Source: Acidobacteriota bacterium
Lineage (GTDB): Bacteria > Acidobacteriota > Blastocatellia > Pyrinomonadales > Pyrinomonadaceae
Direction: 5' to 3'
Assembly: GCA_025463135.1 (NCBI GenBank)
Contig: JAOAPY010000003.1
Coordinates: 1 to 36,126 of the forward strand
Length of the DNA: 36,126 bases
The notes below the pieces were generated by a model. It ran no database searches, was not told the origin of the DNA, and saw nothing but the letters and a program-made list of their open reading frames with translations. Positions 10,359 to 22,374 of this stretch are shown here, in pieces. The translations under genes and the position numbers were made by a program. The first letter of the stretch is position 1, and every line of letters starts with the position of its first letter.

Positions 10359-11081
10359 CTAGTTGTTCTTTGCCACTGTAGTCGCGGGCGCCGCCGGCGT
10401 TGTGCTCGCCGTCTGGCTGGGTTTGACGCCGGCGTAGTTGCACTTGACCGTGAAGTTTATGACTTCCGGCTTGAGCCATGCGGGCGCGTCCCTGGTCGAT
10501 TGAACCTGGCCAGTAGCGGTATTACTCACGGTCATCGCAGTAAGACCCTCAACCTTTTCTTTTTCTCGCAGCGTTTCAATGTGTAGGTCCGTGAACAAGC
10601 CGGAAGAAAATTCCAAACTCTGTCCAAAGCGGGTTACCGCAGCTTCATTGGGCGATTCACCTGAGATGGTTATCTCGCTGCCCTTCTGCGCAATACTCTT
10701 CAGATATAAGCCCGGAACCTGATCGAAGCGCTGCGTTATTTCTCGCAACACTGCTCCGGGTCCTTGCTGTGACGCTTTCAACTTTTGGATTGCGTCAATG
10801 CGAACCTGAATGTCCTGGGTCTTGGTCTTCAGTTCCTGTTGTTCTTTTTCGACGGCCAGCATTTCCCGGTTGATGCGTTGCTGCTTGTCGAGTTCCACCT
10901 GGGCGGCCGAGTGCGCTGAGTGAGCGCTGGTATAGTCATAGCCTGCGCCGAGCACCAGCAGGGCGCCTACGGTTAAAGCCAGCAGCATCGTCTGGATGCG
11001 AGGACTGGTAACCCTTTCCTCCATCATGGCGGCTCCACGCGGCGTATCGGTAATGGAGTCAAGAAGATTTATCTTTATCAT
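10359..11081 (-). CDS. pilN: Type IV pilus assembly protein PilN
   Basis: 240-residue bitopic membrane protein partnering PilM in the cytoplasm and PilO in the periplasm. The first residues, IKINLLDS, match the PilM-binding INLLP-type peptide of PilN. A transmembrane helix spans about 31-49 (TMLLALTVGALLVLGAGY), then a coiled coil (55-100, rich in Glu/Lys/Gln) and a C-terminal alpha-beta domain (VPGLYLKSIAQKGSEITISG, FTDLHIETL). The last 25 residues are Ala/Thr/Pro-rich. The ATG shares one base with the pilM stop codon (TAATG), so the two are translationally coupled. Confidence 0.92.
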   Translation of the reverse strand: MIKINLLDSITDTPRGAAMMEERVTSPRIQTMLLALTVGALLVLGAGYDYTSAHSAHSAAQVELDKQQRINREMLAVEKEQQELKTKTQDIQVRIDAIQKLKASQQGPGAVLREITQRFDQVPGLYLKSIAQKGSEITISGESPNEAAVTRFGQSLEFSSGLFTDLHIETLREKEKVEGLTAMTVSNTATGQVQSTRDAPAWLKPEVINFTVKCNYAGVKPSQTASTTPAAPATTVAKNN

Positions 11082-12142
11082 TACGCGTCAACTCCTCTCA
11101 GCGCGAGTCCTACAGCAACCACCATCTCGGGAACTACTTCGCGCATGTAATCCGGATCGAATCTTCTGGCGTCCACCTGTATTTCCTTGAAGGGGTCGAA
11201 AAACTCGACCGGCAGTTCGAATCGTTTGGCTAAGTACTCTGACAGACCGGGCAGCTTTGAGCCGCCACCGGAGAAAAGTATTTTCTTGATTGCCGATTCC
11301 CCGTCTTCAGCAGTAGCTCTGTAAAAATCCATCGTCTTTTGAATTTCAAGGGCCAGGATGTCTGACACGCTTTCGATAATGGGTTGAATGTCTCGTCCCT
11401 CAACACCTTCAGGTAGCGGCATACCGCGTTTCACAGCTTCTGCTTGTTCGAAGGTCAGTCCCAATTCTCTCTGCAACAGGCTCGTATACTGATTGCCACC
11501 TACCGAAGCGTCGCGAGCAAAAACCGAACGGGTGCCGTTCAGAATATTGATATTCATGGTTGCCCCGCCGATGTTCAGCAGCGCCACGACATCGCCTGGG
11601 GCCGGTCGATAGTTGACTTCGTAACAGTTCTGGAGGGCAAAGGCGTCGACATCGATTACAACGGGGTTCTTGCCGGCAAGTTGAATTGCCTGTTTCACGT
11701 TGGCAATCTTGTCGCTCTTGCAAGCCGCCATCAGGACCGCAACCGATTCACTCGAGCTGCCCGTAATGTGGTAATCAAGATTAACGTCGGCGATGTCAAA
11801 GGGGATGTGCTCTTCCGCGTGCCAGCTGAATGACTCGTGCAGTTCTGCCTCGCTCATGGGCGGCACCACGATGTTCTTGACGATTACGGAATGTCCGCTG
11901 ACGCCGGCGGCCACTCTCGTTGTCTTAATCTTATGCTCATTGAAGATGCTGGAGATGACGTCAGAGACGTTGTTGAGCTCCATAATTTGTCCATCGACAA
12001 TGGTGTCTGTTTGTAAATTCTCAAAGCCGAGATTTACAAGCTGGAGAGTGCCACCTTTCCGTTGCAGTTCGACTGCTTTTACGGAACTGGAACCGATGTC
12101 CAGACCTACCAGATTGTTTTTGCCAATACCTTTTTTAAACAT
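11081..12142 (-). CDS. pilM: Type IV pilus assembly protein PilM (actin-like ATPase)
   Basis: 353-residue cytoplasmic actin/FtsA-fold protein that binds PilN and couples the pilus motor to the inner-membrane complex. The phosphate-1 loop region is LVGLDIGSSSVKAVEL (residues 11-26). The second nucleotide-binding segment is ALLNIGGATMNINIL near 188-202, and ILFSGGGSKLPGLSEYLAKR (near 288-307) is the adenosine-binding motif. The sequence HESFSWHAEEHIPFDI fits the PilM 1C-domain. It is the first gene of the minus-strand pilus operon, followed by pilN with a TAATG overlap. A weak GAGG lies about 12 bases before the start. Confidence 0.95.
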   Translation of the reverse strand: MFKKGIGKNNLVGLDIGSSSVKAVELQRKGGTLQLVNLGFENLQTDTIVDGQIMELNNVSDVISSIFNEHKIKTTRVAAGVSGHSVIVKNIVVPPMSEAELHESFSWHAEEHIPFDIADVNLDYHITGSSSESVAVLMAACKSDKIANVKQAIQLAGKNPVVIDVDAFALQNCYEVNYRPAPGDVVALLNIGGATMNINILNGTRSVFARDASVGGNQYTSLLQRELGLTFEQAEAVKRGMPLPEGVEGRDIQPIIESVSDILALEIQKTMDFYRATAEDGESAIKKILFSGGGSKLPGLSEYLAKRFELPVEFFDPFKEIQVDARRFDPDYMREVVPEMVVAVGLALRGVDA

Positions 12143-12892
12143 GATCTATTTGTTCCTCGAAATCAGTTGAGAACGCAGGCGATGTAATCTCCGTAGACGA
12201 AGGCGGGCTTTGCGCGCTCTTGATGGTCGGAGTTTCAAAACTGTCGGTTGGGCGGGAGCTTTCTGAGTATTCAATGGGATGTACCTGCAAGCAGGAAAAG
12301 CGGTTGGGCCGTAGAGGCTTCACTGTTGAGACATCGGTCATGACCGAGGCGCATCTGCTCGAATGATCGAGCACGCTCCGTCCTGTCGAGTGATGTCGTG
12401 ACAGACTGTCAAAGGAAGGAATCGAAGCCTATCTTCGGTAACCCAGCCAAGTTGGACTTGCTGCCGCCCAACTCCCGTGGCTTTGCGACCTCCGCTCACG
12501 CGAAGTGTGCCATTTATCGATTAGGTTCAAAGAGACGCGAGTTACTTTGCGATCAAGTACCGGTCAAGAGGCTCAAGGGCGAGCACTCCTACGTTGTGAG
12601 CGCAATGGCCCTAACGCGATACTGAGATTACATGACGACCTAAACAATGTCAACCCATATTTTGCTTTGTTTAACTCTTCACCTTGTTGAGGATATCTGC
12701 ATTAGAACAGATTTGCTGGAACCTGCCCGCCTGTGTTTTGGAATCGGCGGACGGGTGTTCCTGGAATCCGAGGAAAGGAAAGCAGCAACTCATTCGGGCG
12801 CCACCAGCTTGGTGATTGGGGTCTTGAAGGGTGTCCGGATTTGTAAATGAAACGACCCTTCTGCCGCCTGAAAGCAAGTAAGGACTATCCCG
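12143..12892. other. Long intergenic region upstream of pilM
   Basis: 750 bp between pilM and the acyltransferase gene, both on the minus strand. Short open frames exist in several phases, but none has an SD, conserved motif or sensible composition, so I call none. It must contain the pil operon promoter. A TTGACA on the minus strand at 12407-12412 has no good -10 partner. A perfect 14-bp palindrome lies at 12334-12347. No terminator for the acyltransferase gene is evident. Confidence 0.5.
12334..12347. promoter_or_regulatory. Perfect 14-bp palindrome TCGGTCATGACCGA
   Basis: The sequence is its own reverse complement over all 14 bases, the form expected for a dimeric regulator site. It lies 192 bp upstream of the pilM start in the presumed promoter region. 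No regulator is known from this window, and a chance palindrome cannot be excluded. Confidence 0.3.
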
Positions 12893-18085: not shown

Positions 18086-19090
18086 ATGGTTGTCAAATCC
18101 AGTACGGTCCATCCTGCTCGTCGCCAAAGGCCTGCAACCCTTGCGCGAGCTTCGGCGAAAATCAGACCTATAACTATTCCACGTGACGTTAACGACGTTG
18201 AGCTGGAAATTGGGGATCGCCGCGTAAAGCTGACAAATCTTAATAAGGTTTTTTGGACGCATCCGGCTATCACCAAGCGTCAACTGCTCCAGTACTACGC
18301 GGACGTCGGGCCATCTCTGCTACCACATCTACAGGACCGGGCGATGGTAATGAAGCGCTATCCCAACGGCGCGGCCGGCGAGTTCTTTTTCATGAAACGA
18401 GCGCCACAACCACGACCCGATTGGATTGAAATCTGCTCAATAACCCACCCTTCAAGTAATGTAATTGATTTTCCCATAATCCAGGATCTCCCTTCCCTTC
18501 TCTGGGTGGTCAATCTGGGTTGTATTGACTTAAACCAATGGTATGCGCGATGTGACGATGTCGACCGGCCCGATTATTTGCATTTCGATCTTGATCCTGT
18601 TCCGGGGGCGAATTTCGATCGGGTCAGGGAGACGGCCCTGGTGGTGCGTGACGCTTTGTCAGCGCTAAAGATGCCGAGCTATGCCAAGACGACCGGGTCC
18701 AAAGGAATCCACGTCTATGTTCCGATCGTGCGTGGGCCAACTCAAAAGGAGGTTTGGTCCGTGGCAAAGGAACTTGCGCGGATACTGGAATCAACGCATC
18801 CGAAGCTGATTACGGCCGAGTATAAGATTGCCAAGCGCCCGCGGGGCAGAGTGCTGGTGGACTACAATCAAAACGCCTGGGGCCGAACGTTGGCGTCTGT
18901 TTACTCTGTACGGCCAAAACCCGAGGCAAGTGTGTCTACACCGGTGAGGTGGGAAGAAATCGAAGCAGGAATAAAGATTGAGGACTTTAGGCTGGACAAC
19001 GTGCCGGCAAGGCTTCGCAAGCTTGGTGACCTCTGGAAGCCAATAATTGCCGCGCGCGGCCGTTTTCATTTGGGCCGCTATTTGGCCTGA
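18086..19090 (+). CDS. ligD: Stand-alone LigD polymerase-domain protein (AEP primase superfamily)
   Basis: 334-residue protein matching the polymerase/primase module of the NHEJ ligase LigD, which adds ribonucleotides at double-strand breaks. Key parts: LTNLNKVFWTHP (49-60), YYADVGPSLLPHL, GFFF-like GEFFFMKRAP (98-107), the metal-binding HFDLDP (166-171), and TTGSKGIHVYVPI (202-214) with the conserved Ser-Lys-Gly-His. The C-terminal part (RPRGRVLVDYNQNAWGRTLASVYSVR in one block) is also typical. There is no ATP-ligase or phosphoesterase domain, and neither Ku nor a ligase lies within the window. The basic N-terminal 35 residues are extra. No clear SD precedes the ATG. Confidence 0.92.
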   Translation: MVVKSSTVHPARRQRPATLARASAKIRPITIPRDVNDVELEIGDRRVKLTNLNKVFWTHPAITKRQLLQYYADVGPSLLPHLQDRAMVMKRYPNGAAGEFFFMKRAPQPRPDWIEICSITHPSSNVIDFPIIQDLPSLLWVVNLGCIDLNQWYARCDDVDRPDYLHFDLDPVPGANFDRVRETALVVRDALSALKMPSYAKTTGSKGIHVYVPIVRGPTQKEVWSVAKELARILESTHPKLITAEYKIAKRPRGRVLVDYNQNAWGRTLASVYSVRPKPEASVSTPVRWEEIEAGIKIEDFRLDNVPARLRKLGDLWKPIIAARGRFHLGRYLA

Positions 19091-21934: not shown

Positions 21935-22012
21935 TGGGGCGGCTAGTGGGACTTGAACCCACGACCTCTTGATTCACAGTCAAGCGTTCTAACCAACTGA
22001 ACTATAGCCGCC
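21935..22012 (-). tRNA. tRNA-His (anticodon GTG)
   Basis: 78 nt including encoded CCA. The 5' end carries the extra G(-1) opposite C73 that is specific for tRNA-His (G + GCGGCTA paired with TAGCCGC + C). The anticodon arm CTTGA-CTGTGAA-TCAAG gives GTG, and the T arm is GTGGG-TTCAAGT-CCCAC. It lies 32 bp downstream of the intron-containing tRNA-Arg on the same strand and is probably co-transcribed. Confidence 0.97.
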
Positions 22013-22044: not shown

Positions 22045-22374
22045 TGCCCCCGGCAGGACTCGAACCTGCGGCCCTCTGCTTAGCTTCCAGCATCAAGTTT
22101 CCCTGACCTCCCAAAACGCGGGGTTGCTGGCTGGACTATATCTTGGACATCTCAGTCCCGACCCGTATAGTCTCTGAGGATCCCACCCGAAAATACAGAG
22201 CGGTTTCCTGCGGATTACCCAATCCTTCCGGATTGTTACTCCACCTGAGAAGTACCGAAGGCTCTAAGGGCGTTCCCGCATATGGGGTCGTCCACTCAAT
22301 GGGTTCCTGATAAGTCTTCCTTCCCCATTAAGGCTCCTACAAGGCAGATGCTCTATCCACTGAGCTACGGGAGC
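22045..22374 (-). tRNA. tRNA-Arg (anticodon TCT) interrupted by a group I intron
   Basis: Exon 1 is 22374-22341 (34 nt: acceptor GCTCCCG, D arm GCTC-AGTGGATA-GAGC, TCTGC, CTT). Exon 2 is 22083-22045 (39 nt: CTAA, GCAGA, GGGCC, T arm GCAGG-TTCGAGT-CCTGC, CGGGGGC, A). Joined, they make a 73-nt tRNA with complete stems (one U-G pair in the acceptor) and loop CTTCTAA, i.e. anticodon UCU for AGA/AGG. The junction after U34 and an intron ending in G are uniquely consistent with group I splicing. CCA is not encoded, unlike in the neighbouring tRNA-His and in tRNA-Pro, and must be added post-transcriptionally. Aminoacylation of AGA/AGG decoding depends on splicing unless a second copy exists elsewhere. 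Confidence 0.93.
22084..22340 (-). ncRNA. Self-splicing group I intron in tRNA-Arg(UCU)
   Basis: 257-nt intron with no ORF. Paired core elements seen by eye (plus-strand positions): P3 22285-22289 with 22160-22164 (GACCC/GGGTC); P4 22276-22280 with 22209-22213 (TGCGG/CCGCA); P7 22166-22172 with 22134-22140 (GACTATA/TATAGTC); P8 hairpin 22145-22158; P9 22087-22092 with 22125-22130. A GGAA-capped hairpin at 22220-22235 lies in the P5 region, a candidate GNRA tetraloop receptor contact. The 5' exon ends in U and the intron ends in G, as required. A possible internal guide GGGG (22323-22326) pairs with the exon CCUU, with CUUA beside it complementary to the 3' exon UAAG (P10). P1 is short as I read it. 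The type is closest to IC-like tRNA introns of cyanobacteria and proteobacteria. Confidence 0.92.

Follow-up and report, generated by a model that had tools for sequence, protein, structure and literature searches.

A group I intron within the anticodon of an acidobacterial tRNA-Arg(UCU) gene and its apparent relatives at the same site in other bacteria

Background

Group I introns are already known from bacterial tRNA genes. The hosts named in the passages cited here are tRNA-fMet, tRNA-Leu(UAA), tRNA-Ile(CAU) and tRNA-Arg(CCU) (PMC4033280, PMC5733544, PMC7717549, PMC1995217 and the tRNAscan-SE 2.0 paper). Four different bacterial tRNA genes were counted as hosts by 2007 (PMC1995217, cited passage), and by 2014 the bearers named were cyanobacteria together with a small number of alpha- and betaproteobacteria (PMC4033280, cited passage). 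As of 2014 all phage introns lay in protein genes, according to the cited part of PMC3984707. For tRNA-Arg(ACG), tRNA-Gly and tRNA-Lys of cyanobacteria, an excerpt of PMC5733544 also lists "group I introns" with lengths of 22-49 nt, which would seem too small to hold a group I core.

A close described system is the tRNA-Arg(CCU) intron of Agrobacterium and other alphaproteobacteria, including BbgpI of Bartonella, which likewise interrupts an arginine anticodon as a group I intron and is likewise left unannotated by tRNA finders; in the cited part of the same source, BbgpI self-splices both in vitro and in vivo (PMC7717549). In the excerpt of the tRNAscan-SE 2.0 paper used here, tRNA genes with group I introns are outside the design of the program, and they were noticed as missing fMet or Ile2 tRNAs in 36 genomes. 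In a search of mainly open-access papers we found none giving tRNA-Arg(UCU) as a bacterial host of group I introns; the title of a 2025 preprint concerns such tRNA introns in Patescibacteria.

Here we describe such a host. tRNA-Arg(UCU) is a further isoacceptor that carries group I introns across phyla. The locus lies in the window, i.e. the whole stretch of 36,126 nt of acidobacterial DNA that was analysed. The gene very probably gives a precursor of 330 nt, and the intron would excise itself from it as a group I ribozyme. The intron would belong to a mobile family specific for the tRNA-Arg(UCU) anticodon loop, as a member that lacks an endonuclease gene.

Anatomy of the split gene

The window carries on its minus strand a tRNA-Arg(UCU) gene into which a group I intron of 257 nt is inserted behind U34 (Table 1). 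A previous inspection of the letters by themselves, the sequence-only reading, had proposed two tRNA halves 257 nt apart, and its coordinates proved exact to the base. The last base of the first exon is T, the intron has G at either end and the first base of the second exon is C; since a shift of one base alters the product, the exon junction is unambiguous. Once the intron is removed, the joined exons form a 73-mer that ARAGORN calls tRNA-Arg(tct), a full clover-leaf with anticodon UCU and every stem paired, in agreement with the U34/C35 junction and the perfect 73-nt tRNA first put forward. No promoter-like site was found upstream on the minus strand by consensus scan.

Table 1. Coordinates of the split tRNA-Arg(UCU) gene, its parts and its downstream neighbour in the window
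Feature	Position	Strand	Evidence
tRNA-Arg(UCU) gene with intron, 330-nt precursor	22045..22374	-	ARAGORN -i: tRNA-Arg (tct) i(36,257)
5' exon, 34 nt, tRNA positions 1-34, CUU at end (U34)	22341..22374	-	33/34 bases shared with the gene of relative G029 (L040), an orthologue without intron
Group I intron, 257 nt, without endonuclease gene	22084..22340	-	RF00028, 29.5 bits; model R1, 102 bits; only mechanical reading frames, 63-67 codons
3' exon, 39 nt, beginning C35 U36 A37, discriminator A last; CCA not encoded	22045..22083	-	39/39 bases shared with the same G029 orthologue (L040)
tRNA-His(GUG), next gene downstream	21935..22011	-	Default ARAGORN; many relatives also have it beside their tRNA-Arg gene, split or intact
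Internal guide UAGGAG: GAG with exon CUU = P1 (U34.G at splice site), UAG with exon CUA = P10	22334..22339	-	P1 invariant, 11/11
P2 hairpin, arms 22324-22332 and 22295-22303	22295..22332	-	Double-sided changes at 3/9 pairs (11 sequences), 9/9 (118)
P3 5' arm, partner 22159-22163	22286..22290	-	Double changes at 2/5 pairs (11 sequences), 5/5 (118)
P4 (22276-22280 / 22209-22213) around P5 and P5a/P5b extension (about 22224-22261)	22209..22280	-	Double changes in P5a, P5b; P4, P5 invariant in 11
P6 and variable P6a arm	22178..22208	-	Helix reading, alignment
P7 arms 22167-22172 and 22134-22139 (guanosine-binding helix); between them P3 3' arm 22159-22163 and P8 22155-22158 / 22145-22148	22134..22172	-	
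P9 (22126-22130 / 22087-22091), inner P9b (22102-22106 / 22093-22097); terminal G of intron = 22084	22087..22130	-	

Structure and covariation of the intron

The core helices P1 to P9 can be read in the intron, including the P3/P7 pseudoknot, and place it among introns with a group I core. Given this core of a 257-nt intron, an archaeal-type intron, short and cut by tRNA endonuclease at a bulge-helix-bulge motif, need not be invoked. To the pairings P3, P4, P7, P8 and P9, which had been noticed from the letters and are all present, they add P1, P2, P5 with a two-helix extension, and P6. The ends follow the group I rule: the 5' exon finishes with a U and the intron with G, as had been remarked at the outset, and the U pairs with the G of the guide; both the U34.G pair and the terminal G hold in 11 of 11 related sequences. 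The core motifs may be IC-like, but the P5 extension departs from the minimal form of IC3, the subgroup proposed in the sequence-only reading.

Covariation was analyzed in 11 window-type sequences, about 81% alike, and in 118 intron cores from several phyla. In the first set 95.7% of the cells are paired, compared to 93.2% in shuffles and 31.9-50.2% when the partners are slid. Pairs changed on both sides number 13, compared to 5.7 in shuffles, and by every one of five measures the covariation is higher than in any of 500 shuffles. This support concerns P2, P3, P5a, P5b and P8. Helices P1, P4, P5, P7 and P9 are invariant in these 11 rows and are therefore neither supported nor contradicted by them; the middle P10 pair, intact in the window, is broken in 8 of the 11. 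In the larger set P2, P3, P8 and P9b are paired in 92-100% of the cells, compared to 58-73% after shuffling. P8 reaches 100%, with double changes at 3 of its 4 pairs, and P9b 99.1%, with double changes at all 5. For P7 the figures are 95.1% paired and 91.8% shuffled, with double changes at 2 of 6 pairs.

Folding of single or aligned sequences did not bring out the pseudoknotted core. In plain folding the strand has an unremarkable minimum free energy (z -1.15, with 13 of 100 shuffles as good). In the RNAalifold consensus of the 11 sequences, the P1 and P7 strands are given other partners; this is expected of a method blind to pseudoknots but lends the core no support.

The guide follows the insertion site. 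In another family of the class, two introns (L063 and L064) lie two bases further along, after U36, and UUGGA, which matches the U36 junction, replaces UAGGAG.

Detection of the gene by annotation tools

The sequence-only reading had predicted that ordinary tRNA finders would miss the gene. This is true of default ARAGORN, which reports only tRNA-Pro and tRNA-His in the whole window, and of Rfam at gathering scores, which reports these two and a c-di-GMP-I riboswitch and misses both the split gene and the intron. The prediction does not extend to ARAGORN with introns allowed, which returns exactly the tRNA-Arg gene, as i(36,257), and no other split gene in the window; triplet-shuffled windows (n=20) give 0.05 intron-bearing calls each. 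Two further observations were made in the window. The riboswitch (12434-12521, minus strand, 52.7 bits) lies upstream of a region with a PilM-type gene (11081-12142), and positions 18086-19090 on the plus strand encode a protein with a LigD primase-polymerase domain (PF21686), a piece of the bacterial end-joining system.

The group I model RF00028 matches the intron region with 29.5 bits and E 9.2e-6 on 421 bases, over the whole length of the model, and on the whole 6.48-Mb genome it gives E 3.4e-5 as the sole match at E 0.001. The expected group I covariance match was thus obtained, but it falls below the gathering score of 50 bits, so that by the rule of Rfam the window intron is not an RF00028 entry. 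The cut-off fails the family as a whole, since it is reached by only 1 of 14 tRNA-Arg(UCU) introns tested in bacteria of six phyla (L152, of Aeromonas veronii CECT 4257, 75.5 bits) and by 0 of 7 acidobacterial ones. Standard annotation overlooks most of the tRNA-Arg(UCU) intron family.

A dedicated covariance model, R1, was built from 18 tRNA-Arg(UCU) introns distributed as follows: nine from Omnitrophota, five from Gammaproteobacteria, two from Bacillota, one from Bacteroidota and one from Chloroflexota, phyla being those of the record titles. No acidobacterial row was included. R1 matches the window with 102 bits and E 3.7e-32; against the whole genome the intron has E 6.6e-30 and the next best match is nothing better than E 1.18. 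All 16 further acidobacterial intron loci match, as opposed to 0 of 7 intronless control loci. The window intron thus belongs to the tRNA-Arg(UCU) U34/C35 family, defined here by an R1 match, and the original group I reading is upheld by RF00028, the core helices and R1 together.

Occurrence of the intron in relatives

A whole-gene search of 60 relatives found the full-length intron in three (G009, G030 and G004), with 78-84% identity; in others the exons flank a different insert of 214-718 nt. The nearest bearer, G009, is in the family of the window, and an identical intron occurs in the record Pyrinomonadaceae bacterium BP_18, in line with the acidobacterial host that had been proposed. The same insertion, at U34/C35, was found in Acidobacteriota and in other phyla, and the window intron is, to judge from these sequences, one lineage of a same-site family in many bacteria, wider than the earlier reading had it.

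An assembly artefact, or tRNA-like halves placed by chance around unrelated DNA, would be another explanation of the split gene, the window genome being a draft of 56 contigs. Independent genomes with the same intron at the same base refute it, further named records agree, and the scarcity of intron-bearing calls in shuffled windows also speaks against it; we give it practically no credit.

A pattern scan of the genome collection for the exact first exon and the guide gave at least 115 stretches, plus 13 viral contigs. The bearers include cultured strains of Exiguobacterium, Lysinibacillus and Niastella, while no cultured host of a window-type intron is named among the matches listed. A strict finder, for which the G/CTAA junction is needed, completed the tRNA in 111 of these (at least) 128 and a relaxed finder in 8 more; the remaining 9 of the 128 listed end within 31-658 bases. 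Some rows are duplicates (L033 = L124; L197, L201, L208 and L209 alike; L198 = L202). Rows of the tree span at least seven phyla by record title (Pseudomonadota, Bacillota, Bacteroidota, Omnitrophota, Acidobacteriota, Chloroflexota and Elusimicrobiota), and introns at U34/C35 are present in viral contigs too. In a careful tree of 112 rows, six long-branch rows having been dropped, the window type forms one clade, which groups with Omnitrophota-type rows and stands apart from the other acidobacterial introns. A single acidobacterial clade is not rejected either in a quick tree (p-AU 0.895, the tree constrained to it being even better) or in the careful one (p-AU 0.098), and for this reason we do not claim two arrivals in Acidobacteriota.

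Among 162 genomes of the class, the intron pattern is present in 34, the intact pattern in 80, both in 3 (G030, G082 and G141) and neither in 51; the last group may reflect gaps or the strictness of the patterns. Most relatives have a split or an intact gene, rarely both. When 396 genomes were sampled from the phylum, the intron pattern occurred in 5, all among the 47 of the window's class, and in 0 of the 349 outside it.

We also considered whether the cell has another tRNA of this kind. Two patterns and ARAGORN were applied to 18 intron-bearing genomes. A second tRNA-Arg(tct) turned up in 11, for the most part inside dense tRNA arrays; the other 7 (G004, G007, G009, G011, G024, G027 and G038), whose assemblies are 78-99% complete (98% for G009, 99% for G038), yielded no further UCU tRNA by these means. 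The stretch L067 (G000:C9:1-20000) contains 23 tRNA genes for most amino acids, interleaved with RtcB, HNH and Ro60/TROVE-like genes, and holds an intronless tRNA-Arg(tct). An additional tRNA-Arg(tct) without intron is found in the window genome as part of a tRNA array, with rtcB- and Ro60-like genes alongside, so the split gene need not be essential there. That copy, and the middle P10 pair broken in many relatives, would suit a decayed intron in a dead gene, whose structure would persist by recent descent without splicing while the tRNA-Arg(UCU) of the array serves the cell. We regard this as highly improbable: P1, P4, P5, P7 and P9 remain invariant and the changes elsewhere are compensated, 12 of the 16 genomes of genus g10 retain the intron pattern, the exons of the window give a faultless tRNA, and for G009, G007 and G038 no other UCU tRNA is there to replace it in the search described.

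Endonuclease genes and mobility

The introns collected number 129 (119 distinct) among the matches listed: 74 are at most 380 nt long and 55 are longer. A frame of at least 80 codons is present in 46 of the 55, again among the matches listed. By motif these frames are distributed as follows: 34 PD-(D/E)xK-like, 5 LAGLIDADG, 5 HNH (all in viral contigs) and 2 without class. Pfam searches on representatives gave PF11645 for 3 of 3, LAGLIDADG_1 for 1 of 1 and HNH_3 for 1 of 1. The 11 window-type introns, all from Acidobacteriota, measure 257-277 nt and have no endonuclease gene; the window copy has no frame for the intron-encoded endonuclease that marks a mobile group I intron. Searched against 50,697 phage and 72,556 plasmid records, the DNA of window-type introns gave only exon-sized matches (8-12% of the query), hence no mobile carrier of the window lineage was found. 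The window intron is probably an immobile derivative, inherited by descent.

Proposed splicing

The two-step splicing of group I introns is an established mechanism, and presumably applies to the window intron. Transcription of the gene would yield the 330-nt precursor. Guanosine bound in P7 would attack after U34, whose partner in P1 is a G; once freed, U34 would in turn attack behind the last G of the intron, and the joined exons would form the 73-nt tRNA-Arg(UCU), expected to read AGA and AGG. The element itself would have been mobile formerly and would now pass on with its host. The sequences show the gene anatomy, the structure of the catalytic core, covariation, empty sites in relatives and the endonuclease genes of other members; splicing, its independence from protein, the way the introns spread and the loss of their mobility in this lineage are inferred.

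An alternative to independence from protein is an intron of group I structure that is not self-sufficient and requires a partner such as a maturase-like synthetase or an RNA chaperone. Some group I introns do need proteins in vitro (PMC3984707, cited part), but the window intron is compact and encodes no protein, and the tRNA-Arg(CCU) intron of Bartonella does without one in vitro according to the passage cited (PMC7717549); we consider a required partner unlikely. With the Bartonella intron as a close analogue, self-splicing of the window intron is the predicted behaviour.

Extent of the family

R1 matches 71 of the 162 genomes of the class. The 70 further loci of the class (L288-L357) have various hosts: a CAU tRNA resembling tRNA-Ile2 in 24 cases (after U33), tRNA-Leu(UAA) in 15 (by ARAGORN), tRNA-Lys(CUU) in 11 (after U35), tRNA-Asn(GUU) in 5 (after U35) and 23S rRNA in 4; no host was assigned to 11. 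In L357 (G024:C491) the R1 match lies inside a putative rtcB (RNA ligase) gene, recognized by eye from the translation.

Observations were also made on viral DNA. Three of the four viral tRNA-Arg(UCU) introns tested (from L197-L209, IMG/VR contigs) exceed the Rfam cut-off. L264, L265 and L267 comprise tRNA-Leu(UAA) introns in Agrobacterium phage Atu_ph07 and in a 735-kb phage record, and a tRNA-Arg with a 213-nt intron in Microcoleus phage OR578706. If the viral contigs are those of phages, their tRNA introns would extend the 2014 picture of phage introns.

Taken together, these data incline us to see a large and mostly unannotated group I family in the tRNA-Arg(UCU) anticodon loop. It would span at least seven phyla and phages, with interchangeable PD-(D/E)xK, LAGLIDADG and HNH endonucleases and at least one shift of site accompanied by a matching guide. 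Acidobacteriota of the Blastocatellia type would be a hot spot, with introns also in tRNA-Lys(CUU), tRNA-Asn(GUU), a CAU tRNA, tRNA-Leu(UAA) and 23S rRNA, and many essential tRNAs would thus depend on ribozymes. Where standard tools are used, what appears is a missing tRNA gene and not an annotated intron, which bears on tRNA inventories, completeness checks and predictions of codon decoding. The family also offers a natural series, with and without endonuclease and at the U34 and U36 sites, for testing spread and loss of mobility.

Comparison with known systems

The alphaproteobacterial tRNA-Arg(CCU) intron differs from that of the window in its isoacceptor and in the phylum of its host. It is inserted after the U of CCU, whereas the window intron follows U34. 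The intron of cyanobacterial tRNA-Leu(UAA) lies between the first and second anticodon bases, as does the window intron. The acidobacterial and phage tRNA-Leu(UAA) introns examined here share this relative position, with guide GAG against CUU; the tRNA is a different one, and the two-helix P5 extension is the window intron's. The Azoarcus tRNA-Ile(CAU) intron (IC3) also has an anticodon-loop host, but in a different tRNA and at a different position, the P5 extension again being the window's. We take the P7 segments of the window, AGAGACUA and AUAGUCC, to resemble the P7 of Azoarcus.

As to the Synechocystis tRNA-fMet intron with I-Ssp6803I (PD-(D/E)xK), the PF11645 proteins of sister introns are similar to it in length (150 codons) and intron size (655), as given in the cited part of PMC1995217; the host tRNA is another one, and the window intron is without an endonuclease gene. 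A phmmer search with one PD-(D/E)xK protein from a sister intron matched no solved structure, and kinship to I-Ssp6803I itself is for that reason not claimed. Also near are the tRNA-Arg(UCU) introns of other bacteria, which share with the window intron the same gene, the U34/C35 site and a homologous core; the window lineage is distinguished from them by the lack of an endonuclease gene and by P5 and P9 arms of its own.
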